A DNA stretch of 64,000 nt from contig NZ_JAQSWB010000003.1 in NCBI RefSeq assembly GCF_029266855.1, forward strand, positions 186,001 to 250,000, given 5' to 3'. Under the pieces are notes generated by a model. It was not told the DNA's origin and searched no databases. It saw only the letters and a list, made by a program, of their open reading frames with translations. Each line of letters opens with the position of its first letter. Positions within the stretch are counted from its first letter, which is position 1. Source of the stretch: Fluviicola sp. GTDB lineage: Bacteria > Bacteroidota > Bacteroidia > Flavobacteriales_D > Crocinitomicaceae. This document shows positions 16,687-28,586 of the stretch, one piece after another. The position numbers were made by a program, and so were the translations under genes.

Positions 16687-17358
16687 TCAGATCGCGATCG
16701 TAAGTACCAGCACAGTACTTGTTGTGTTGGAAACAGTTCCGGCTGCAGGAATTTGTGCCTGAATTGGTAATCCGTCTGCTGTTTCTTCATCTGTAATCAC
16801 TTCATCATCCGGACTTCTTAATTCATAAGTGAATCCTAGGTTCTGAATCAATTCTTTCGTTTCTTCATTCCAATTTTTAGTAGTCAGGTCAGGAACGATT
16901 CGAATTTCAGACAGACTCTGAGGTGGTGGAACAGGAACTATTTTGAACTTCAGTTTCGCCATTGCATTTGATTGTAATCCGAAGCGGTTGACATTTCCTG
17001 CATTTAGCGGCGTTGCATTAATTGCATATTTGGACAGGGCATAACCCGCAACCGGACTGGATTGTTCGGATTTCAAATCAAGCGACAGGGAAATCTGTGC
17101 TTCAACTTCTGTTTCGGGAATGGTATAAAAAGTGGGTTGATATCCCATTCCACGAATTAAATTCAGGAGTTTCAGTTCTTCTTCGGTTCTTTCATCGTCT
17201 TTACTGAGGTCATAGATTTCCAAAGTTTGCTGAAGAGCTCCCTGATCCAGGGCAGCCTGGGCATCTCCGACTCCCTGACCTACAGAACTGATCAATTCTC
17301 CCAACGGACTGCCGAGCAGCTCGCTGAATAATTGTACTGGGTTGTTAGTATCACTCAT
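16687..17358 (-). CDS. Core-block protein with C-terminal PASTA domain (cluster gene 10)
   Basis: The N-terminal block SPLGELISSVGQGVGDAQAALD (about residues 17-38) is shared with the other cluster proteins; next come the strand block GYQPTFYTIPETEVEAQISLS and the third block (AKLKFKIVPVPPPQSL, near 140). Residues 152-223 form a PASTA-like domain (RIVPDLTTKNWNEETKELIQNLGF, ending QIPAAGTVSNTTSTVLVLTI). There is no signal peptide or membrane helix. PASTA domains normally lie outside the cell on penicillin-binding proteins and Ser/Thr kinases, so this context is odd. The start overlaps the previous gene by 8 bp. It is the last gene of the cluster. Confidence 0.8.
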   Translation of the reverse strand: MSDTNNPVQLFSELLGSPLGELISSVGQGVGDAQAALDQGALQQTLEIYDLSKDDERTEEELKLLNLIRGMGYQPTFYTIPETEVEAQISLSLDLKSEQSSPVAGYALSKYAINATPLNAGNVNRFGLQSNAMAKLKFKIVPVPPPQSLSEIRIVPDLTTKNWNEETKELIQNLGFTYELRSPDDEVITDEETADGLPIQAQIPAAGTVSNTTSTVLVLTIAI

Positions 17359-18259
17359 GTTTGCTAAAAATTACGGTTATTAATTGATTGGGCTGAATGC
17401 TGTCTCCTGGAGCCGGTGATTGTTTGAAAGAATCGCCGTTCACGACATCCGTGTTATTTTGATACACGGGGTTCAATCTTAAATTGAGACTTTTCAGTAC
17501 TCTTCGAACAGCTGTTTCGGTTAATCCGCTCAGATCAGGAAGCGTTGCCATTGTGGTTTCTCCACTTTGCGTAGGCGTGATATCAAAAGTGAGTTCACTG
17601 ATGGCATTGCCGTTGATATTGTCTGAATTGGCAATATCCAATAAAGCAGCACTTACGGATTCTCCGTCTCTCTGAATTACTGCTTTCAATTTCAGTGAAA
17701 TATTTGAAAGTTTGAATGCGGAAGATGCAGAAGCTCTTGTTGCGTTCTCTATTTCAGAAACAATATCGGTATACAGTTCATTAATAGGAACGGCAGTTGT
17801 TTCCGGCGTTTCCGGGCATTCACATTCAAAAGGAAAGTAGCTTGCAATAGGCTGAAAATCTTTGAAATTACCTGTAATACCGGTGATAGCGTCTTCTGGA
17901 GCCAGCCAGAGCGCACCGAAATCAAATTCATAGATATCACCGTCATAGACATTAAAGGCGAAAGTACTTGCAATGATCTTCGGAAGTCCGCTTCCAGTAG
18001 GAGGTGCAGCCGGAACAATGATCAACGGCGGGATCTGCTCGCTTCGGAGACGGTCAAAATAAGGAGCTTCTTCCGGAGTGGCAGTATTGATGGATCTTTG
18101 AATATAAAGTCCGCCTTTGGTGATCGTTTCTGCATAAAGTGTGACCCAGGTCTTACTGGAAGATTCGTAATACTTTACCAGAACAGGATAATTATCTGCT
18201 AATGATCCGTCTGAATTGCGAAGTGAAAGTTTGGTTAGGGTATTTTGAAAATCTATCAT
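17351..18259 (-). CDS. Three-part protein with C-terminal PASTA domain (cluster gene 9)
   Basis: The 302-residue protein starts with a beta-rich domain (KLSLRNSDGSLADNYPVLVKYYE, about 1-140) that resembles an Ig/CPD-like fold. A degenerate core segment follows (INELYTDIVSEIENATRAS then SNISLKLKAVIQ, about 158-200), and a PASTA domain ends it (LPDLSGLTETAVRRVLKSLN, SPAPGDSIQPNQLITVIFS, about 237-299). No signal peptide is seen. It overlaps the previous gene by 4 bp and the next by 8 bp, implying coupled translation and fixed stoichiometry. Confidence 0.78.
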   Translation of the reverse strand: MIDFQNTLTKLSLRNSDGSLADNYPVLVKYYESSSKTWVTLYAETITKGGLYIQRSINTATPEEAPYFDRLRSEQIPPLIIVPAAPPTGSGLPKIIASTFAFNVYDGDIYEFDFGALWLAPEDAITGITGNFKDFQPIASYFPFECECPETPETTAVPINELYTDIVSEIENATRASASSAFKLSNISLKLKAVIQRDGESVSAALLDIANSDNINGNAISELTFDITPTQSGETTMATLPDLSGLTETAVRRVLKSLNLRLNPVYQNNTDVVNGDSFKQSPAPGDSIQPNQLITVIFSKHE

Positions 18260-18966
18260 GGCTTACTAATTGCGATTGATGAAAAATGTGTTCCGCTGTT
18301 GGTTACAAAAACAAATGTTTTATCCGTGTCATAATCGGTATTGTCAATTTGAACGGAAACGGTGAATTTCCCGGTGCTGTCAGTGTAACCATCTTTTGCA
18401 CCCAAAAAAACGGGAGGAGTAACAGGAGTGTCGGAATTGAAACCCAGTGAAGTTTGCTCATCAAAGTTAATTTCGATGCGTTGTCCCGCTACAGGTTCAT
18501 TGTTTGCATTGACAACGTTGACTACTAATTGGTATTCAATGATATCCGGATCCTCATCGTTCAGTTCCGCAGAACAATTCAAAAAGATCTGCGGTAAGCC
18601 TTCATTTGGCATTACTGCAACAAATCTTCCCGAAATATTACTGGTGATACTCCCCAGGTTTTTTGATGTTGTTTCGGTACTTCTAAAGGGGGTGAAACGA
18701 ATGGCATTCAGGGCTAAAACCGGTGATGTTGCCGTTCTTCCGGGAATCTCAAGTGTTCCATCAGTTCCACTTGTTTGTGTTGATTCGAATTGCGAAACAA
18801 CTTCCAGGTTAAAATCCAGGTAGGGAAGCTGGTACAGGGTGTTAGGCCGTCCGTATTCGTCATACGGAGGCATACTGCGCAACTGCTGCTGCGCTTCGTT
18901 CAGGCTGTCGGCGATGCTGAGAACTATTTCATGCAAGGCCAGTGAATTATATGCTGATTGACTCAT
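18256..18966 (-). CDS. Core-helix protein with C-terminal Ig-like domain (cluster gene 8)
   Basis: The N-terminal helix LHEIVLSIADSLNEAQQQL (about 11-29) and the strand block YQLPYLDFNLEVVSQFE (about 44-60) correspond to the first two core blocks of the family; the third block is missing. The C-terminal half (from about 128) is a bacterial Ig-like domain of Big-1/invasin type (EYQLVVNVVNANNEPVAGQ, GYTDSTGKFTVSVQI). No signal peptide is present. It begins 1 bp after the coiled-coil gene and overlaps the next gene by 4 bp. Confidence 0.75.
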   Translation of the reverse strand: MSQSAYNSLALHEIVLSIADSLNEAQQQLRSMPPYDEYGRPNTLYQLPYLDFNLEVVSQFESTQTSGTDGTLEIPGRTATSPVLALNAIRFTPFRSTETTSKNLGSITSNISGRFVAVMPNEGLPQIFLNCSAELNDEDPDIIEYQLVVNVVNANNEPVAGQRIEINFDEQTSLGFNSDTPVTPPVFLGAKDGYTDSTGKFTVSVQIDNTDYDTDKTFVFVTNSGTHFSSIAISKP

Positions 18967-18967
18967 T

Positions 18968-20041
18968 TTAAATGTATTTATCTTTTTTACGTTCTTTCAT
19001 TCTCTTTGACCGTTCTTCTTCTTTTCGTTCGGCCTTTTTTTGGGATAAGCGTTCGGCCTTTCGTTTTTCCCGGAGTTCGATTTCCTTTTCGGTCTCTTTC
19101 TGTTCGGATTTTTTAGAAGAGCTATCTTCGCGAACTTTATTTTGTCGGTCTTCCATAGACAATTCTTTTTTCAGGTTATCAGTCAGTTCTTTGATCTCAG
19201 GAACTTTTGATTCCAGGGATTCCAGTGAATCTTTGATGTCTGATTTCACTTTCTGACCGAAGCGTTTTGTTTCTTCCAGTTTTTCCGAAAGTTTTTTCAG
19301 GCTTACTTTTTCCCGGAGCTTTTCTGTTTGGGCTTCACGTTTTTCGTCCCAGTCATCTTTTATCCTGCGAATGCGAGTTGGAATCTCTGCAGCTTTTTTT
19401 ACCTGATCCGGTTTCTTTTGAAACTTCACAAGATCCTTCTGTCCGAAAGAGTCTGATGTTTTTTTGAATTCCCTGATTTTGTCAGGGATCTTCTCTGTCT
19501 TTTTGACTCCTTCGGTTAGCACTTTTTTCTTTCTTTCTATTTCATCTTTCTTTTTCCGTATGAAATCGGTGTCAAACCGTTTTCTCCCGGAACTTTTGTT
19601 TACTGATTTCGGTGCTTTCAGGCTGGTTGAAGGATCTTGTTCCGTTTCTTTTTTCTGAAGCAGGGTTTTTCTTTGGAGAGCGAGCTTTTCTTTCAGACGG
19701 TTCTGATTTTGTTCCCATTTCTCCAATTCCCTGTTCTTTTGTAAGAGCCGCTCTTCGAGTTTTCTTTTCTGAGCGGCTCTGTTTTTTTCTTTCTCACGTT
19801 TACTCTTAAACGATTCGATAGTACCGGTGAACCGAGGATCTTCTTCTACAGGATTATTGGATTGAAGTAAATTGCCCATCTCATTTTCCAAAGACTTCCG
19901 TTCCTTCAACAATTCATCCAATTCCCGGTTTTGCGATGCAATTTCATCGAGGGTTAATTGGATACTACTAAAAGAGTTTTCGCTTCCGTTGTTTGAATCG
20001 GAATCAGTGGTTTTGACGAGTTTTTTCCAGCTTTTTGTCAT
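18968..20041 (-). CDS. Highly charged coiled-coil protein (cluster gene 7)
   Basis: The 357-residue protein is dominated by Lys, Glu and Arg, with long heptad-like runs (QNRELDELLKERKSLENEMG, KRKLEERLLQKNRELEKWEQ) and an extreme basic/acidic tail (KRKAERLSQKKAERKEEERS). There is no hydrophobic segment. Such proteins act as scaffolds, rulers or nucleic-acid-associated rods; none can be assigned. It sits between core-block proteins with gaps of 34 and 1 bp, so it is part of the same transcript. Confidence 0.72.
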   Translation of the reverse strand: MTKSWKKLVKTTDSDSNNGSENSFSSIQLTLDEIASQNRELDELLKERKSLENEMGNLLQSNNPVEEDPRFTGTIESFKSKREKEKNRAAQKRKLEERLLQKNRELEKWEQNQNRLKEKLALQRKTLLQKKETEQDPSTSLKAPKSVNKSSGRKRFDTDFIRKKKDEIERKKKVLTEGVKKTEKIPDKIREFKKTSDSFGQKDLVKFQKKPDQVKKAAEIPTRIRRIKDDWDEKREAQTEKLREKVSLKKLSEKLEETKRFGQKVKSDIKDSLESLESKVPEIKELTDNLKKELSMEDRQNKVREDSSSKKSEQKETEKEIELREKRKAERLSQKKAERKEEERSKRMKERKKDKYI

Positions 20042-20075
20042 AATCTGTGAATAGGGTTGTTATTTAATCTTCGTT

Positions 20076-20633
20076 CTAACCTTCCACTTCTTCTTCAGGT
20101 GGAGGTGGCATTTCGGCCTGAACTCTGGCGATTTCTGTTTCGTCCATCAATTGTTTCAAACGACTTTCAAACATGGCCGGAGCCGGAACCGTTACTAGTT
20201 TGGTACGCATTTCGGAACTTCCGCTTGCTTCATATTGGTATTTCTGGGAATAACTTGCGTTCACAGAGGCTGCAATGACACCAAACGGTGACCAGGCAGC
20301 TCCTCTGATAGAAGATTCAGCACTTACTTCCTCTTCTTTTTTCATCGAAATAGCCAATTTGAGTTCAATGTATGTTTCTACGAACTGGTAAAATGTAGGT
20401 GTGAAACCGAGAGCCAGTAAGCTCACTCCTTCATCGCCTTCTCTGAGTTTGATCAGCGAGGTTTCATCACGTTCCAAGTTTCCCGAATCATTCGTTACAA
20501 ATCCCGCCATTAATTGCGCGATTCTGATAGAAACACGATCGAGAGCATATTGAGCCTCGGCAATCCCTACACCAAGCGTTCGAACCAATTCAGGAAACGG
20601 AGCATTTAATAACTCTCTTCCAACATTTATCAT
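20076..20633 (-). CDS. Minimal core-block protein (cluster gene 6)
   Basis: At 185 residues this is close to a pure version of the core: LLNAPFPELVRTLGVGIAEAQYALD (8-32), LLALGFTPTFYQFVETYIELKLAISM (about 73-98), and SYSQKYQYEASGSSEMRTKL with VTVPAPAMFESRLKQLMDE near the end. The tail EMPPPPEEEVEG is acidic and Pro-rich. It has no signal peptide. It is most similar to cluster gene 5. The order helix, strand block, VxVxAxP-like block recalls the DUF2589 family, whose function is unknown; that link is my inference. Confidence 0.78.
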   Translation of the reverse strand: MINVGRELLNAPFPELVRTLGVGIAEAQYALDRVSIRIAQLMAGFVTNDSGNLERDETSLIKLREGDEGVSLLALGFTPTFYQFVETYIELKLAISMKKEEEVSAESSIRGAAWSPFGVIAASVNASYSQKYQYEASGSSEMRTKLVTVPAPAMFESRLKQLMDETEIARVQAEMPPPPEEEVEG

Positions 20634-20691
20634 AAGCTTATTGATTAAGGGTTAATAGAGCAGCTGCCACTGTGACAGCTGCCCGGGTTAA

Positions 20692-21558
20692 TTATGCCGT
20701 CGGTTGTGGTGGAGTGTTGTTAAACTCTTCCTCCATCAAGCGCTGAATACGTTGTTCCAGAACTGCAGGAGCAGGAATCGGCACCAATTTGGTGCGAAGC
20801 AAACTGGATCCTTCAGCTGAGTAACTGTACTTCTGAGCGTAGCTGGCGTTCACCTGCGTGGTTTGAACGGATCGTCCGAATTTGATTCTTCCCAACCCAA
20901 ATCCAATGCGAGCTGCACTTGATCTTAAGTTGTTGTTTACTGCGGTGTTGGTAGATCCTTCTTGTGTGTAACGGATGGAAATTTTCACTTCAATGATCGT
21001 ATCCACGAATTGATAGAAGGTTGGGGTGAAACCACATTCCAACATCGAGATTCTTCTTGGAAGGCTGACTGCCGTAGCAGGATCATTCGTACCGGCAAGA
21101 GCAATCTCCAGGTCCCCATAGGCTACCTGGACAGAGCCTGTTCCGCCTACGGTACCTACATGGTAAAAACCTTGATAATCGATATAAGTATCCTGTGGAA
21201 TTGCTGCTCCAGGAGTAAATCCGGTCGGAACAGTAGTGGTTAACGTTGGTTTGTAACTGCTACCCAATACTCCACGAATCTCTGCTTTTTGCTGAATGTT
21301 GGATGTAGAATTGTGACGAGCAATCGCTTCACCTTTTGTGATGCTTTCCGTTCCGAAATACACACGGCTGTCCTGGAAAGTAACGTTCCCTGCTTCATCC
21401 GTAACGGTTGTTAAGCCGCCCATCATTTCGGCTACATCGATAGAGTTCTGATCCAGAACGATTTGTGCTTCTGCAATTGCAAAAGCCATTTGGCGAATCA
21501 TGTCGCCCATAGGCACGTCAAGAAGTTCCTGACCAATGCGTGGTTTGTTGTTAAACAT
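20692..21558 (-). CDS. Core-block protein with internal insertion (cluster gene 5)
   Basis: The first block is LLDVPMGDMIRQMAFAIAEAQ (12-32). About 120 residues are inserted (TTVTDEAGNVTFQDSRVYFG, then a DTYIDYQGFYHVGTVGGTGS stretch) before the second block CGFTPTFYQFVDTIIEVKISI. The third block is SYAQKYSYSAEGSSLLRTKL followed by VPIPAPAVLEQRIQRLMEE. Compared with gene 6 the core is clearly paralogous and the insertion is a beta-rich module of unknown type. No export signal is seen. Gaps to neighbours are 25 and 58 bp. Confidence 0.78.
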   Translation of the reverse strand: MFNNKPRIGQELLDVPMGDMIRQMAFAIAEAQIVLDQNSIDVAEMMGGLTTVTDEAGNVTFQDSRVYFGTESITKGEAIARHNSTSNIQQKAEIRGVLGSSYKPTLTTTVPTGFTPGAAIPQDTYIDYQGFYHVGTVGGTGSVQVAYGDLEIALAGTNDPATAVSLPRRISMLECGFTPTFYQFVDTIIEVKISIRYTQEGSTNTAVNNNLRSSAARIGFGLGRIKFGRSVQTTQVNASYAQKYSYSAEGSSLLRTKLVPIPAPAVLEQRIQRLMEEEFNNTPPQPTA

Positions 21559-21583
21559 ACTTTGTTGTTTTTGTGATTAATGA

Positions 21584-22045
21584 TTACGTTGTTGTGTTTC
21601 CTTCTGAGCTTAAATTTTTCAGAAGTGTAACTAGGTTTTCGGGTGGAGGCAGTGAAACCATGCGGGCTGCAATACTCGAAGAGGCCGAAGCCGATTGATC
21701 GAATTTACGTGCGTAGCCTGCACTTACGGTAGTTGAAACTACCTTTGTTTCAACTGAAACCACACCATTGACATCGAAAGCAGTCGATTCTGACATAGCG
21801 AAGTCCATTTTTGCATCAAAACTTGCTTCCGTAAAAGCGTAGAAACTGGGAACGAAACCTAGATTTAACAGGCTTACTTGTTTTCCTCCGATTTCCACGG
21901 TGCTGGAAGCGATCTCCTTGAGCATTTTGATAGAATTGCCGTCTAAAGCTGCTTGCGCTGTTGCTATTGAAAGTCCCATGTTTTCGATCATGGATGAAAG
22001 CGGGGAGTTCGTTAGCGTACTTGTAATTGTTTCAATTGCTGCCAT
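21584..22045 (-). CDS. Minimal core-block protein (cluster gene 4)
   Basis: At 153 residues this is the smallest family member. Blocks: NSPLSSMIENMGLSIATAQAALDG (12-36), LLNLGFVPSFYAFTEASFDAKMDFAM (about 58-84), and AGYARKFDQSASASSSIAAR then MVSLPPPENLVTLLKNL. It is nearly free of extra modules, so it is the best template for defining the core. It starts 24 bp after the OmpA-containing gene and shares with it the variant third block (AR[ML]VSLPxP). Confidence 0.78.
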   Translation of the reverse strand: MAAIETITSTLTNSPLSSMIENMGLSIATAQAALDGNSIKMLKEIASSTVEIGGKQVSLLNLGFVPSFYAFTEASFDAKMDFAMSESTAFDVNGVVSVETKVVSTTVSAGYARKFDQSASASSSIAARMVSLPPPENLVTLLKNLSSEGNTTT

Positions 22046-22069
22046 TTACTAGAAGTTAATAGGTGAATA

Positions 22070-23923
22070 TTATTCTTCCGTAGAGCTTCCGTATTTTCTA
22101 TCCAGAAAAGCACGGAACGCATCTGGTGCAGGAAGTGAAACCAATCTTGCTGACATGGAGGAGTTTCCTTCCATAGACATTTCAAACTGGCGCGACATTC
22201 TGAAATCCACACTTGCTCCGAAAGCGAATGACTTACTTTGAGTAGTGTTACTTGAGCTTTCGCTTTCTGTAGCACTTTCACTCTTGGTTTTCGCCCACAA
22301 GTAGGAACTTTGGTTTTCGCTTCCTTCGATTCCGCTTTCAGAGTTTTCTTCAATGGTAATCTCTTCTGCCGCATTGGAAAGCAAATGCAATTTGACAATT
22401 GCTTCGTTGTCCAGGGAGTAATGAAATCCTTCTGTCGTTTCTTCGTGCTTGTGGTTAGTCAATTTAATCTTTGCAGAATTCCAGATTTCCGTAAAATCGG
22501 AATTGGTAGCTACCAGACTAATTGAACCGTATTGAACATCCAATGAAGTAAATACACCACCTGGTGCCGTAGAGTCATCCGCATAAACGAATTTATTAAC
22601 TCCGGTAGTTGGTGTTGCTTCTTTTTTCACATTACCACCGATAACGATCAGATAATCTGCATCCAATTCGATAGTAGCATTACGTTGCAGCAAATTACTT
22701 GGACCTGCAGTATTGGTAATCGCACCAATTTCTACATTGACCGGAGCTGAAGATCCGAAGATATGGTTGCATAGCTTTTCAGCACGTCTTTTAGCCAAAC
22801 TTCTGTTTTTCGGATTGTCTCCACCTTTCGGATCTGTCATTCCTGTAATGGTAATTGACGCACCAGAATCGTGGCTTTGGATCAAGCGAAGTACTTTATG
22901 GATCAGTTTATGCTCCGGGTAGTTCTGATTATCGACAGCAGTGGTAGGAGCTTCATACGGAGTATTGTAATCCAGGACACTTGTTTCTGCGGGTAGTTTC
23001 AGATCTTCATTATACGTAATCTTATCGCTGTTGTACGGGAAGTAAAACTTACTTGAAATTTTCATCCAGCCTGTTCCATCATGCATGTGTAAAGTTCCAC
23101 CTTTCGTCAAAGCATAAACAGCAGCTCCGGCTCCGGCTCCTGTAACAGCATTGTTTAACAATGTGTTATCAAAGGCAGTAGGCAAATTGAAAGGGGTAGC
23201 AGCCGTTGGTGTTGGACCATCAAGATCAATGGAAATGGTAGGTGCGTTAAAGTCTGTAATCTTTAATACTCCGACACCCTTCGCTGTTCCTCCAAAATGT
23301 AAACTTGGTTCAATTCGAATGAATCCTCCGTCTATCCAGACATCCACCCCGCGGCTTTTATTTTCGGTAAGCGTTCTGGACTGGATTTCTTCATACACCT
23401 GGTCAACGGATGCTTCGGTTTGGATTTTGTGTTTGAAATCCTCCAAACGGCTTTTTGAATCAAGGTACTCACTTTGGCTGACGAATTTGTTGTTGATCTT
23501 GATTGCCTTTTTTTCTTTTGCGCGAAAGTTCAATTGTCGAACAGATTTGTATTCTTCGGAAGTTTCCGAATAACTGTTTGAACTCAGGAACGTTCGGCTG
23601 GCTGAGGTGTATCCTTTTTGGTTGGCCAATTGGACATCGAGTCCAAATCCGAATTCCAACGCTTCTTTCAGACCCATTCTCAAGTTGATACTGGCACTGA
23701 TGTCCGCATATTGGAATGCGTAAAAGACAGGAGCGAATCCTAAAGACAACAAGGATTCACCGTCGATGTTGGTTTCTGCCAATTTAATAGCCTGGGCTAT
23801 CGAATTGTCATCTAGTTTCTGTTGAGCTTCTGCAATTCCCATTGCAAGGTTTGTAAAGATGTCGCTGACATCGACCTGCTGAAGAATGGAAGCCCCTTCA
23901 CTGAATTTGGTTAAATCACTCAT
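22070..23923 (-). CDS. Core-block protein with embedded OmpA-like domain (cluster gene 3)
   Basis: The 617-residue protein has the first block DIFTNLAMGIAEAQQKLDDNSI (about 21-42), the second LLSLGFAPVFYAFQYADISAS (58-78), and the third at the far end (DFRMSRQFEMSMEGNSS, ARLVSLPAPDAFRAFLD, about 573-608). Between lies some 480 residues, including a beta-rich region with DGTGWMKISS and an OmpA-like domain at about 290-420: KFYFPYNSDKI, then TGMTDPKGG and NRSLAKRRAEKL. Asp364 and Arg379/380 correspond to the residues that bind diaminopimelate in OmpA. There is no signal peptide, unlike normal OmpA-domain proteins. Confidence 0.8.
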   Translation of the reverse strand: MSDLTKFSEGASILQQVDVSDIFTNLAMGIAEAQQKLDDNSIAQAIKLAETNIDGESLLSLGFAPVFYAFQYADISASINLRMGLKEALEFGFGLDVQLANQKGYTSASRTFLSSNSYSETSEEYKSVRQLNFRAKEKKAIKINNKFVSQSEYLDSKSRLEDFKHKIQTEASVDQVYEEIQSRTLTENKSRGVDVWIDGGFIRIEPSLHFGGTAKGVGVLKITDFNAPTISIDLDGPTPTAATPFNLPTAFDNTLLNNAVTGAGAGAAVYALTKGGTLHMHDGTGWMKISSKFYFPYNSDKITYNEDLKLPAETSVLDYNTPYEAPTTAVDNQNYPEHKLIHKVLRLIQSHDSGASITITGMTDPKGGDNPKNRSLAKRRAEKLCNHIFGSSAPVNVEIGAITNTAGPSNLLQRNATIELDADYLIVIGGNVKKEATPTTGVNKFVYADDSTAPGGVFTSLDVQYGSISLVATNSDFTEIWNSAKIKLTNHKHEETTEGFHYSLDNEAIVKLHLLSNAAEEITIEENSESGIEGSENQSSYLWAKTKSESATESESSSNTTQSKSFAFGASVDFRMSRQFEMSMEGNSSMSARLVSLPAPDAFRAFLDRKYGSSTEE

Positions 23924-23974
23924 AAATTAATTGTTTTTAATGTTTTACGAAATGCAGGTGAATCGCTCTTGCCT

Positions 23975-23989
23975 GCCAAAATTTTTGGC
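23975..23989. repeat. Short palindrome in the gap between cluster genes 2 and 3
   Basis: GCCAAAATTTTTGGC is a perfect 7-bp inverted repeat about one base. It lies in the only sizeable gap of the cluster (170 bp). I see no TAnnTTTG box there, so an attenuator, processing site or operator are all possible. Confidence 0.4.
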
Positions 23990-24093
23990 GTGACAATCCT
24001 GGCCCGGTTCTTTTCAGGGAGGGAAGAGACAGGTGGATATTCTTAACTTCGCGCGCAGCTAAAACCGCCTGCGATTTCGTATAAACGTTTGTT

Positions 24094-24651
24094 TTAGAAC
24101 GGATTGATCATTTCCGGCAGTTGAACTGCTATTTTTTCGTTGACATTTTCCTTACGAACAGTAAAGTAGTGATGCCTGTTTTGTAAATCACGCACTTTTT
24201 GGTGAGTAATTGCATAACCTCTTCGAAGCCAGTTTAATAGTTCTTTGCTTAAGGGCATATTAAAACCGGTTGCCTCTTTGAGCGCTGAATCGAAAGCTTC
24301 GATCGCCTCTGTTTTTTCATCCAGGTAGATGCACTGGATTCCTTTCCGTTCCCAGAGTGATGCGAGGTTTTTCCTGAACCAATCATCGTTTCGATCGACT
24401 TTTTTTGGTGTCAGGAAATCAATGCTTTTCTCACAAAAAGTGATGATTTCCTGGTGTGCCTCCATCAATTCCAGTGATTCCATTGCACACAAACTGTAAT
24501 GCTGCAGGAAAACTTCTGAATTTTCGGCCGTTTGACACATGCGCATAGCCTCTTTGTAATGGCGTAATGCTTCTTTGTGATCTCCTCTTAAAGCGAGTAC
24601 TTTTCCGTTTTCAGCGATTTGGAGATGGAGGTTAGGTTTGTTTTCGTTCAT
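24094..24651 (-). CDS. TPR-repeat protein (cluster gene 2)
   Basis: The 185-residue protein contains TPR-like helical pairs: NGKVLALRGDHKEALRHYKE (about 14-33) and GIQCIYLDEKTEAIEAFDSA (about 104-123), with further helices between. It is soluble with no signal peptide. TPRs mediate protein-protein contacts, so it may be an assembly factor or chaperone for the cluster. It starts 5 bp after the first gene and is followed by a 170-bp gap. Confidence 0.78.
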   Translation of the reverse strand: MNENKPNLHLQIAENGKVLALRGDHKEALRHYKEAMRMCQTAENSEVFLQHYSLCAMESLELMEAHQEIITFCEKSIDFLTPKKVDRNDDWFRKNLASLWERKGIQCIYLDEKTEAIEAFDSALKEATGFNMPLSKELLNWLRRGYAITHQKVRDLQNRHHYFTVRKENVNEKIAVQLPEMINPF

Positions 24652-24656
24652 AGTGC

Positions 24657-25715
24657 TTAGTATTCGTATTCGATTTCACATCCAATGTATTCCAGCTGTT
24701 TTTCAAGCAGTCGGCTCAAAGTACCACCGAGGGGCAGAGGGGCTTTCCAGACATCTGTGATTTTGTCTAAACTGACATCTTTGTAAAATTTGCTCAGGAT
24801 TTCCCTTGCTTTTCCTGAATCGGTAATGTTACTTACAGTGAGAAGATACTTTCCGAATGGGATTTGTTCTTCGGAACAATCCAAACCGGCTTGTTTGTAG
24901 GTGGCTAATTTTTCCTGAAGTGTTGCGTAGTTGACTGATTCGTCGAGCAGAACTGGAAGATTAGCGTGAATTTCTGCGAGTACTTCCGTCGGCATGCCGA
25001 TTTCGCTGACCAAAAAGTTGGTCTGGGAAGTATTCGTCAGGTCAAAGTTATCCAGGAGAATACGAAACCTGGAATAGCTCTGATTGTAGATCTTAACCTC
25101 GTGCTGGGATCGGTAGCGTGTGAGAAACTGGTTCATTTGTTCGTAGGTTAAGTTGCGAACCCATTTTGTTTCTCCCTCAGGAATGGTAATTTCCTGATTT
25201 TTGAAGAGGTTAATTAACTTCAAGCGGTCATTTTCTGATTCTGCAGTGAATTCAATGGTGTACAAATCCATTTTCGGGTTACTTGCAATCACTTCGGCAT
25301 CTACGCGTTTTTGCAAGCTTTCTGCTGTGGCCATAGATACTCCACCCAAAACCACGCATGGTTCCTGGAGCAAGAGTTGCAGAGATTCACTTTCATCGCA
25401 GCCCAGAAATTCTGACAGCTGTTTGTTAACGGTGCTTAATTTCACCGGATCATTGATGTGGATGGCGATATCAAGGGATTCTGTGGACAGAGGTGCTTTT
25501 TCATTCACATTTTGTATCTGAACTTCCAGCCCGAGTTCTGTTAAAATGGTGAATGCCTTTTCTGCCAGCGTTTCATCTGCATTGTCCAAAAAGACAGCAG
25601 GCGCATTGTAAAGAATTTTGAATAATAACTCCTGATTGATTTCAAATGCTTGGGAAAGCGCTTTGATAATTTTAGGGGTTGCCGTACCAACGGAAAGGAT
25701 GATAATTCGTTTCAC
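24657..25715 (-). CDS. Protein of tandem ribosomal L7/L12-CTD-like repeats (cluster gene 1)
   Basis: The 352-residue protein appears built from about five repeats of a small alpha/beta unit. The clearest are at residues 15-68 (KALSQAFEINQELLFKILYN then APAVFLDNADETLAEKAFTI) and at the C-terminus (WKAPLPLGGTLSRLLEKQLE then YIGCEIEY). The pattern APxxLxxxxxxxxAExxxxxLxxxGxEVE follows the C-terminal domain of ribosomal L7/L12, a docking domain for translation factors. The other repeats are more divergent. No signal peptide. It is the first gene after the promoter at 25.8 kb. The repeat call rests on motif reading by eye. Confidence 0.65.
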   Translation of the reverse strand: MKRIIILSVGTATPKIIKALSQAFEINQELLFKILYNAPAVFLDNADETLAEKAFTILTELGLEVQIQNVNEKAPLSTESLDIAIHINDPVKLSTVNKQLSEFLGCDESESLQLLLQEPCVVLGGVSMATAESLQKRVDAEVIASNPKMDLYTIEFTAESENDRLKLINLFKNQEITIPEGETKWVRNLTYEQMNQFLTRYRSQHEVKIYNQSYSRFRILLDNFDLTNTSQTNFLVSEIGMPTEVLAEIHANLPVLLDESVNYATLQEKLATYKQAGLDCSEEQIPFGKYLLTVSNITDSGKAREILSKFYKDVSLDKITDVWKAPLPLGGTLSRLLEKQLEYIGCEIEYEY

Positions 25716-25783
25716 GATTCGATTTATAATGGTTAATAATAGGTTGTTTTTGCAGCTTTTTCTTTTACCGATTTGCTACCTTA

Positions 25784-25815
25784 CAAAGATAAGAAATCTT
25801 TATTGATCTACCAAA
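25784..25815 (-). promoter_or_regulatory. Promoter of the core-block cluster
   Basis: On the minus strand TTTG, a 20-bp spacer and TATCTTTG match the Bacteroidota consensus exactly. The -7 box is 68 bp before the ATG of gene 1. The rest of the 311-bp gap (25,716-26,026) is strongly AT-rich, with one terminator at its far end and no other feature seen. Confidence 0.8.
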
Positions 25816-25966: not shown

Positions 25967-26001
25967 AAAAAAAAGCAGGAGAGTAAATTTTACTCTCCTG
26001 C
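25967..26001 (-). terminator. Intrinsic terminator after the LytTR regulator
   Basis: A 13-bp perfect stem GCAGGAGAGTAAA / TTTACTCTCCTGC with a one-base centre is followed on the minus strand by eight T. It lies 25 bp after the regulator's stop and separates that operon from the core-block cluster. Confidence 0.9.
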
Positions 26002-26026
26002 CGGAATGCATCTATTTTTAGCCTTT

Positions 26027-26752
26027 TTACAATCCCAACCTGGATTTTAAATCACTGTATGAAGAACGTGAGATCGGAATGCTTGTACCGCTCTTTAAAA
26101 TGGCAACGTAACTGTTTTTCTCGTAGGATTCGATTTTAGTTAATTCGTTTACATTCATAATATACGAGCGGTGGATCCGGATGAATTGATCTTTGGGTAG
26201 AACCTGTTCGAAGTGATTCATTGTTTGTTTCTTCAATACATATTTTTTCCCCTGATAGATTTTCACGTAGTCATCATATGCTTCAATATAATCCACTTCA
26301 TTGATCGGGATGATCTTGATCTCGGTTCCGTCTTTAACGACTATCCGGTTTTGCTCGTGAATTATTTGAAGCGGAATATCTTTTCTTGAATCAGGATTCA
26401 GTTCAATGTTCCTTTTTTTGCTGATCGCCGAATCAAAACGTTCTTCCGAAAATGGTTTTAACAAGTAATCCAGTGCATTTACTTCAAATGCTTTTAATGC
26501 AAATTCGTCAAAAGCGGTGGTGAAAATAACCGCCGGATTTTCCGATAGCAATTCCAATAATTCAAACCCGTTGATCTTTGGCATTTGAATGTCGAGGAAC
26601 AACAAATCCGGTTTTGCTTCGGGAATTAGCTTCAATGCTTCAAATCCGTCATTTGCCTCTCCAACGAGAAGAATGTCCGTGTATTTTTGTAAATGCTTTT
26701 TAACAAGCTCTCTTGCCAGTGGCTCGTCGTCTACAATGAATGCCTTAATCAT
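26027..26752 (-). CDS. LytTR-family response regulator
   Basis: The receiver domain (1-120) has the phospho-acceptor Asp in LLFLDIQMPKINGF, acidic pair DDEP at the start and the conserved Lys in LLKPF. The C-terminal LytTR DNA-binding domain (about 145-241) has EVDYIEAYDDYVKI and FIRIHRSYIMNV. Its ATG overlaps the kinase stop by 4 bp. With the LiaF-like gene it forms a three-gene envelope-stress-type operon. Confidence 0.95.
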   Translation of the reverse strand: MIKAFIVDDEPLARELVKKHLQKYTDILLVGEANDGFEALKLIPEAKPDLLFLDIQMPKINGFELLELLSENPAVIFTTAFDEFALKAFEVNALDYLLKPFSEERFDSAISKKRNIELNPDSRKDIPLQIIHEQNRIVVKDGTEIKIIPINEVDYIEAYDDYVKIYQGKKYVLKKQTMNHFEQVLPKDQFIRIHRSYIMNVNELTKIESYEKNSYVAILKSGTSIPISRSSYSDLKSRLGL

Positions 26753-27774
26753 TTCGGGATCAAAATTTTAGTAATGAATAGCTTATCTTGTTTTTCGGTG
26801 GTTAACAGATCGTATTGATTAAAGAGCAGCATGAGTCTGCGTTTGATACTTGTGAGTCCAAATCCTTTTCCGGCTTTGTATTGCGTGAAATCTGAATCAA
26901 AAGGATTTCTTACTTCGATCAGCAAACCATTTTCCTGGTGTTTCACGCCGACATAAATAACAACTTCTTCGGTAGAGCCGTATAATCCGAATTTAATCGC
27001 ATTCTCAATAACAGGCTGAAGCAGCAGAGGAGGTACCAATGTCTGCATACAGCCTTCATCAATGTCGAATTCGGTTTTCAAACGATGTCCGAAACGGATC
27101 TTCTCGATTTCAAGATAGCGTTTTACCTGCTCGATTTCTTCTGCGATCGGCACTAAGGTTTGGATGTCTTTGCGCAGGGTTCCGCGAAGGAAATCACTTA
27201 ATAATAAGATCATCCGGTTGGCTTCCTTCGGATTTATTTCAGTCAAAGCTCCTATTGAATTCAGACTGTTGAACAAGAAATGGGGCTGTAACTGCTGATG
27301 AATATTGTCCAGCTCTGCTTTGGTCAATGCGCGTTCCTGTTCGATAAGCTGCTGATGAACCTGTGACTGGATCTGTTGATTTTTATTTATCCACCAATAC
27401 AAACTCACCGAAATGAGAATAAAGAAAACGATAAAGGCCCGTGCTCCTTCAAAGGGGCGAATGTATTCTGTCCATCTTTCATTCCCTAAGACCAGTTTGA
27501 ATGCGCTGTTAATCAAAAGTTGGTAAATTGCTGTTAAAACCAATACCAAACCGAAATTGTAAAAATTAACTGGTCTTTTTGCATGGGAATAAGTCTGAAT
27601 GAAATACAGGATCTGCGAAATAATCGAAATGATCAGTCCGGAAAAAAGTGAATCCTTCCAGGCAATATCAACCGGAAAACGATTCACTAACAGTAAAAAG
27701 AAGAGTACAAGACTTGCAATCACCGTCCAAACGATGAAAAGTAACTGCACTTTTGTACTGGTTCTTAAAAACAT
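26749..27774 (-). CDS. LytS/YehU-type sensor histidine kinase
   Basis: The 341-residue protein has four N-terminal membrane helices (about residues 10-130), a linker helix, then a His_kinase domain with the phospho-acceptor His in LQPHFLFNSLNSIG and an HATPase domain (PVIENAIKFGL, GKGFGLTSIKRRL). No large periplasmic sensor domain is present, so it probably senses within the membrane or through the upstream LiaF-like protein, which ends 5 bp before it. Confidence 0.94.
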   Translation of the reverse strand: MFLRTSTKVQLLFIVWTVIASLVLFFLLLVNRFPVDIAWKDSLFSGLIISIISQILYFIQTYSHAKRPVNFYNFGLVLVLTAIYQLLINSAFKLVLGNERWTEYIRPFEGARAFIVFFILISVSLYWWINKNQQIQSQVHQQLIEQERALTKAELDNIHQQLQPHFLFNSLNSIGALTEINPKEANRMILLLSDFLRGTLRKDIQTLVPIAEEIEQVKRYLEIEKIRFGHRLKTEFDIDEGCMQTLVPPLLLQPVIENAIKFGLYGSTEEVVIYVGVKHQENGLLIEVRNPFDSDFTQYKAGKGFGLTSIKRRLMLLFNQYDLLTTEKQDKLFITKILIPK

Positions 27775-27779
27775 GTGCT

Positions 27780-28586
27780 TTATTTACTGAAACTGTTTAC
27801 TTCAATTCCTCCGAACATACAGGTTCCTCTGAGTACCATGACTTTGGTTTGTTCACCGGCATCTCTTTGGTACTGTGGGCGTTTATCTTCGAATGATCCA
27901 AAGATGCTGGCAACTTCAGAAATTACTTCCCAGTTATTGGGGATCGTTAAAGTTGTTCCGCCGAAAACATTGGTTACATCAACTACGATCCGATCCTGAA
28001 AGTCTGCCTGCGAGAGATTTACGTCGGTTCCGCCGAAGAAAGAAACGATGTCAGCACCTTTGAAATTCTTGCTTACGACCGTTTTTGTAATGCCGCCAAA
28101 AAAGCTGACACTGTCGATGAAATCTTCTTCGTTCACATTGTAAGCGGCATAACCTCTTTTATGAGCTTCGTGGATGTGTTTCCAGTTTTCCTTTGAAAAT
28201 CGCTGTCTTCTTTTGTTCTGTCCGCATTTCCTGTTTTTTGAAAAAACAATAAACAGACCGATGAGGATTAGTGCGATCGGGAAAATAATTTTGCCATTAA
28301 TTAAATTCGGATACCATTCTGCCAAAAGGAAAAGTTTACCAACAATGATAAGCAGGTATCCATGAAATTTTCTGAATTTGTGTTTGATCAGTACAATGAT
28401 CCCGATTACGATAAGGATCATTTGCCAGCTAAGTAAGTAAGATGGGATTTCGTAACCCAATTGTTTCAATAAGTAAACTACTCCAAAGAAAACAATGGCT
28501 AATCCACCTGCAATTTTTCCGCGACGATGACTTTTTTGTGCTTTTAAAATTTCGTGTTCGATTTCCGTGCGAATATCTGTTTCCAT
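27780..28586 (-). CDS. LiaF-like membrane protein
   Basis: The 268-residue protein has four membrane helices (e.g. IAGGLAIVFFGVVYLLKQLG, SWQMILIVIGIIVLIKH) followed by a soluble beta-solenoid-like domain with repeated FGG turns (VSFFGGITKTV, VSFFGGTDVNL, TNVFGGTTLTI, CMFGGIEVN). This is the LiaF/DUF2154-type architecture. In Firmicutes LiaF restrains the LiaS kinase under non-stress conditions; a similar control of the neighbouring kinase is inferred from gene order. Confidence 0.85.
   Translation of the reverse strand: METDIRTEIEHEILKAQKSHRRGKIAGGLAIVFFGVVYLLKQLGYEIPSYLLSWQMILIVIGIIVLIKHKFRKFHGYLLIIVGKLFLLAEWYPNLINGKIIFPIALILIGLFIVFSKNRKCGQNKRRQRFSKENWKHIHEAHKRGYAAYNVNEEDFIDSVSFFGGITKTVVSKNFKGADIVSFFGGTDVNLSQADFQDRIVVDVTNVFGGTTLTIPNNWEVISEVASIFGSFEDKRPQYQRDAGEQTKVMVLRGTCMFGGIEVNSFSK

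Follow-up and report, generated by a model that had tools for sequence, protein, structure and literature searches.

Among described systems, the conflict systems of Kaur et al. (2020; PMC7159879) carry OmpA and PASTA effector domains, with L12/ClpS insertions in one bacteroidetes subsystem. In the only paper found to name the protein family DUF2589 (Pfam PF11655), related Archaeoglobus genes (AF0414–AF0417) were up-regulated on lactate. Here we describe a set of ten genes, named J to A in order of transcription, on the minus strand (16687–25715) of a 64,000-nucleotide stretch of DNA from Fluviicola sp. (contig NZ_JAQSWB010000003.1; hereafter, the window). The ten genes form a single co-conserved unit, and no model in Pfam, NCBIfam, PHROGs or PADLOC names the ten-gene system. 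A preliminary description, made from the sequence alone, had proposed an undescribed system at this position; the profile searches, which place the genes in no known system, bear that proposal out. No description was found in the literature, where preprints and most subscription journals lay outside the search, and an unseen description is therefore possible.

One scan of an 85,462-species genome collection recovered 19 further loci, or 20 with the window. Unless a contig end cuts the locus short, all ten slots recur in identical order and on the same strand, a conservation of gene order in other genomes on which the preliminary description had staked its proposal. Beyond the ten, no flanking genes are common between lineages, and the unit therefore ends at J and A. 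The module is not specific to Bacteroidota: its carriers include Gammaproteobacteria and metagenome-assembled genomes (MAGs) of Gemmatimonadota and Latescibacterota, and among isolates it occurs in Fluviicola and Olleya (Bacteroidota) and in Halomonas, Marinobacterium, and Parendozoicomonas (Gammaproteobacteria). In a concatenated tree the copies from Gemmatimonadales and Latescibacterota, which come from MAG contigs, cluster with Halomonas, so that transfer to those phyla depends on binning. The module is also rare. It is complete in one of 297 Bacteroidota genomes (the window's own copy) and in one of 369 genomes of the Marinobacterium class (the seed), the second match in each of these samples being a match to two core proteins; within the window genome it is single-copy, with no paralogous copies elsewhere. 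That distant bacteria have kept a ten-gene module intact is difficult to account for unless it encodes a machine that needs all of its parts. A phage or tail origin was considered and rejected, as no match was found in PHROGs, phage records, or IMG/VR.

Two further records touch on this distribution. A smaller cluster, found on a Sphaerotilus plasmid (L039:14643–17422) and at L049:2293–5658, consists of a short first gene, two core proteins, a protein of 165–170 aa, and a coiled coil, and is possibly an ancestral or reduced form. The record CP034120.1 (L005), although filed as 'Glaciecola amylolytica THG-3.7', a gammaproteobacterial name, appears to be a genome of the Fluviicola type: its downstream gene order is that of the Fluviicola loci, and its E protein is 83% identical to that of the window.

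At the center of the module is a shared core fold. The preliminary description had counted five proteins with a full three-block core, and in orthologue profiles every pair among E, F, G, H, and A matches by hhalign at 95.6–100% (H core part vs. G, 98.9%; A core vs. E, 99.2%); the core is complete in E, F, G, and A, but in H it is split in two pieces around the insertion that holds the OmpA-like domain. The two partial members of the earlier count, C and B, are doubtful as such: C shows weak core similarity (59.6% vs. A, 8% vs. the pooled core), and B joins A through its PASTA domain only. Bacteroidota and Gammaproteobacteria copies of E are ~50% identical, and 52 columns are invariant among 16 sequences. 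No model in Pfam, NCBIfam, or PHROGs names the core, and solved-structure relatives were found neither by sequence against the PDB nor by Foldseek.

Judged by profile–profile comparison only, the core is a remote, full-length relative of DUF2589. The Pfam model itself matches none of the ten proteins, nor anything genome-wide at E ≤ 10; an alignment of 30 core sequences, however, matches that of DUF2589 by hhalign at 91.4%, with 167 columns collinear, and larger alignments give 84.9%, against less than 9% for most unrelated profile pairs. The AlphaFold models of E and of a DUF2589 protein both have an N-terminal helix of 30 residues, then long strands, then a C-terminal helix, at a mean predicted local distance difference test score (pLDDT) of only 60 and 69.5, respectively; the DUF2589 model has no significant match in the PDB (Foldseek). 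Both sets of proteins are soluble and combine an AQ helix at the N-terminus with a VPIP-like block and, at the C-terminus, an MPxGL-helix block, and DUF2589 clusters, like the module, place two or more paralogues and an AQ-helix partner in one operon. DUF2589 loci, present in 27 of 396 Bacteroidota genomes, differ in being smaller, in lacking the I/J/H/D set, and in carrying a third gene (~185 aa) that has no counterpart in the module. In a further likeness, genes for wall hydrolases, a lipase-like product, or a protease occur at some of them: M15 and patatin (L077), CHAP (L084), PG_binding_1 (L091), and subtilase (L037).

Several further observations concern DUF2589 loci. On the Deltaproteobacterium Smac51 plasmid (L108:6119–10401), DUF2589 genes are followed by a gene annotated 'peptidoglycan-binding protein' and muramidase-like by inspection; L108 also encodes a conserved protein of 91–94 aa that is present too in a Vibrio plasmid (L105). 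At L093:2622–6818, a 1398-aa protein, SpvB/RHS-type by inspection only, directly follows the DUF2589 cluster. In a viral library the DUF2589 model had a candidate match, A0A516MP19, and a tblastn match came from a single unannotated 4-kb faecal contig.

The remaining proteins supply the partners that the preliminary description had named, a coiled-coil rod (D), a TPR protein (I), and a repeat protein (J). It was likewise correct in finding no signal peptide (N-termini by inspection), membrane helix, or enzyme motif in any of the ten proteins; the highest 19-residue Kyte–Doolittle mean among them is 1.35, and a transmembrane helix is therefore absent. But recognizable domains do exist: two PASTA domains, an OmpA-like domain, and bL12-like repeats. 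The OmpA-like domain of H matches Pal (4g4v) at 4.9e-15 by orthologue profile, and Pfam OmpA (PF00691) is found in 13 of 14 H orthologues, the window copy itself falling below threshold. The J orthologue profile matches 1ctf (L7/L12; E = 5.2e-4), Pfam Ribosomal_L12 is found in 5 of 13 J orthologues (best 9.2e-5), and internal repeats 1–2 and 1–4 match at 94–96% by hhalign. Gene I, with orthologues at 17 other loci, is a probable assembly or adaptor partner; gene C, with orthologues at 19, has a C-terminal domain that by inspection is probably Ig-like. At the other loci the D slot is always occupied by a charged gene whose N-terminus is similar (221–377 aa; 38–56% K/R/E/D/Q), and B orthologues outside the Fluviicola group carry an added coiled coil in the alignment. 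Gene A is longer in L004 (13235–14119, 294 aa) and L005 (13244–14350, 368 aa) than in the window; extra C-terminal repeat copies there indicate that repeat number varies.

In three lineages the gene nearest to J is a peptidoglycan hydrolase that, by inspection, has no signal peptide. In L006, 16 bp separate J from the end of an Amidase_2+SH3 gene, the sole Amidase_2 gene found in that genome. In L018 a PG_binding_1+M15_4 gene lies 290 bp before J, an arrangement repeated in L019, and the L018 genome (5.0 Mb) was found to contain one M15_4 gene and three PG_binding_1 genes. L016 has a CHAP+PG_binding_1 gene 224 bp from J, beside a Lipase_3 gene, in a genome with two PG_binding_1 genes. With so few such genes per 3.5–5 Mb genome, chance is very unlikely to have placed one within 300 bp of the module in three of about ten lineages, an estimate that is a rough argument and not a formal test.

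OmpA-like and PASTA domains bind peptidoglycan in other proteins, and here they are built into three subunits (H, A, and B). The reading that we favor, tentatively and at somewhat below an even chance, is that the products of the ten genes come together in the cytoplasm as a single soluble complex, which interacts with peptidoglycan and acts in concert with an interchangeable wall hydrolase; we infer its peptidoglycan binding, its assembly, its location, and its target. In such a complex the core proteins, as remote DUF2589 relatives, would form an oligomeric body, the coiled-coil D could act as a rod or ruler, and J and I, with their L12-like repeats and TPR, may aid assembly or recruit a client. 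The PASTA and OmpA modules would attach the particle to a cell wall, to which it might carry an exchangeable wall-degrading enzyme (amidase, M15 peptidase, or CHAP hydrolase, sometimes together with a lipase); the wall could be another cell's, reached after release or injection, or the cell's own. B is the fastest-evolving of the ten genes (49% identity to the copy in L002), while E, G, I, and J are the most constrained between the window and L002 (G, 95% identity), as would be expected of an exposed tip on a fixed body. It seems improbable, but worth stating, that the system is a new sheathless, cytoplasm-assembled particle of DUF2589-like subunits with PASTA/OmpA docking on peptidoglycan, carrying interchangeable wall hydrolases or lipases to other cells, the DUF2589 clusters being its smaller cousins.

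Several points weigh against a wall-directed complex with a hydrolase partner. A hydrolase adjoins the module in only a minority of lineages, and is absent from that position in the window's own lineage and in Halomonas; adjacency is all that ties the hydrolases to the system. In the pooled Pfam scan of DUF2589 flanks, most neighbors are ordinary housekeeping genes, and no hydrolase family is prominent among the 25 families listed, a number too small to gauge enrichment. The module has no tube, sheath, spike, ATPase, or membrane anchor, and the low-confidence model of the core (E) has no match in the PDB, so that oligomerization, too, is something we infer.

Similar domains occur in the conflict systems noted above, and the module may instead be an intracellular immunity system that senses invasion or damage and turns its peptidoglycan modules and linked hydrolase on the cell's own wall, as has been proposed for other multi-gene conflict systems that carry OmpA, PASTA, and L12/ClpS domains, an alternative that we consider unlikely yet deserving of attention. 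The vWA–MoxR coupled systems of Kaur et al. (2020; PMC7159879) are, like the module, multi-gene and patchy, with OmpA, PASTA, and L12/ClpS domains in some subsystems; the module is patchy and rare as well, and lysis of the cell wall could plausibly serve as an abortive response. Those systems, however, center on vWA, MoxR/AAA+, or STAND nucleoside triphosphatases (NTPases), whereas searches of the ten proteins found neither a vWA domain nor an NTPase domain (AAA+, STAND, or other); nor does the module contain a highly variable effector gene. Among PADLOC defence-system proteins only PD-T4-6 models match, and they do so within the PASTA part of B.

A self-assembled intracellular structure unrelated to the wall, such as a compartment, filament, or storage particle, is the kind of assembly that the preliminary description had suggested, and is somewhat less probable again. 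Such a structure would fit the solubility of the proteins, the five paralogues with one shared fold, the rod and TPR partners, and the strong constraint on E and G, but it would have no evident need of OmpA and PASTA domains, and neither a cargo enzyme nor a shell homologue was found (Pfam, NCBIfam, PHROGs, PDB sequence). Taken together, the PASTA, OmpA-like, and L12-like domains, the remote link to DUF2589, and the hydrolase neighbors, all of them missed in the preliminary description, argue for a peptidoglycan role over a gas-vesicle-like or compartment-like one. Least probable of all, in our estimate, is a chaperone-like or export-adaptor complex, in which a SecB-like holdase core with TPR and L12-like adaptors would hold wall enzymes or adhesins that lack a signal peptide in a state fit for delivery. 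Both TPR and L12/ClpS-like domains belong to the adaptor folds, and several SecB structures are among the top Foldseek matches to the DUF2589 model (with probabilities as high as 0.84); these matches, however, have E-values of 0.3 or worse and TM values of 0.4 or below on a model of pLDDT 69.5, and the core model itself gives no SecB match.

Table 1. Promoter and genes of the ten-gene module, in order of transcription (window positions)
Feature	Position	Strand	Length (aa)	Description
Promoter	25784..25814	minus		Bacteroidota-type, TTG-N20-TATCTTTG; ~100 bp upstream of J; pattern search
J	24657..25715	minus	352	GTG start; tandem bL12 C-terminal-domain-like repeats, at least three
I	24094..24651	minus	185	TPR protein; TPR_2 5.7e-7
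H	22070..23923	minus	617	Core fold split by large insertion with OmpA-like domain
G	21584..22045	minus	153	Minimal core-fold protein; hhalign with E 99.9%
F	20692..21558	minus	288	Core fold with ~100-aa insertion; hhalign with E 100%
E	20076..20633	minus	185	Core-fold protein, most widely conserved
D	18968..20041	minus	357	Charged coiled-coil rod
C	18256..18966	minus	236	AQ-helix protein, possible partial core
B	17351..18259	minus	302	C-terminal PASTA domain, 3.9e-9
A	16687..17358	minus	223	Full core fold and PASTA domain, 5.7e-5

Differences between the window and its nearest relative, L002, are enriched at third codon positions in all ten genes of the module, which are therefore genuine coding genes, and the promoter pattern (Table 1) recurs upstream of J in four relatives (L001, L002, L004, and L005; it was not found in L006 or L007), in agreement with the original picture of ten minus-strand genes read from one promoter. 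The tight spacing of that picture holds in that most gaps are under 60 bp (from J to A: 5, 170, 24, 25, 58, 34, 1, −4, and −8 bp), but the 'several' overlaps come down to two, of 4 and 8 bp, and a 170-bp gap precedes gene H. No RNA families were found in the module region. Just upstream, on the same strand, lie genes for a LytTR-type response regulator, a histidine kinase, and a membrane protein (26027–28586), separated from the module by a strong terminator (25974–26002); these neighbors are retained in L001 and L002 and not in L004 or L005.

Among better-known assemblies, contractile injection systems and phage tails resemble the module in their cytoplasmic assembly without signal peptides (presumed for the module), in a rod-like component, and in the wall hydrolases that adjoin some module loci. 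The module differs from these, and from tailocins, in having no sheath, tube, spike, baseplate, or AAA+ gene (Pfam, PHROGs). The preliminary description had likewise recognized no sheath, spike, AAA+, or GvpA-like gene, and none emerged from Pfam, PHROGs, or NCBIfam; a GvpA or encapsulin-type shell homologue is equally absent from Pfam and NCBIfam matches, and the core has no sequence match in the PDB. The OmpA-like domain of H matches Pal structures, but here it sits inside a soluble core-fold protein without a signal peptide. The module matches no known system, and DUF2589, itself of unknown function, is the closest family. If the complex is indeed a wall-directed device, it would represent a new class beside contractile and type VI secretion system (T6SS)-like systems, and would offer the first functional lead for DUF2589.

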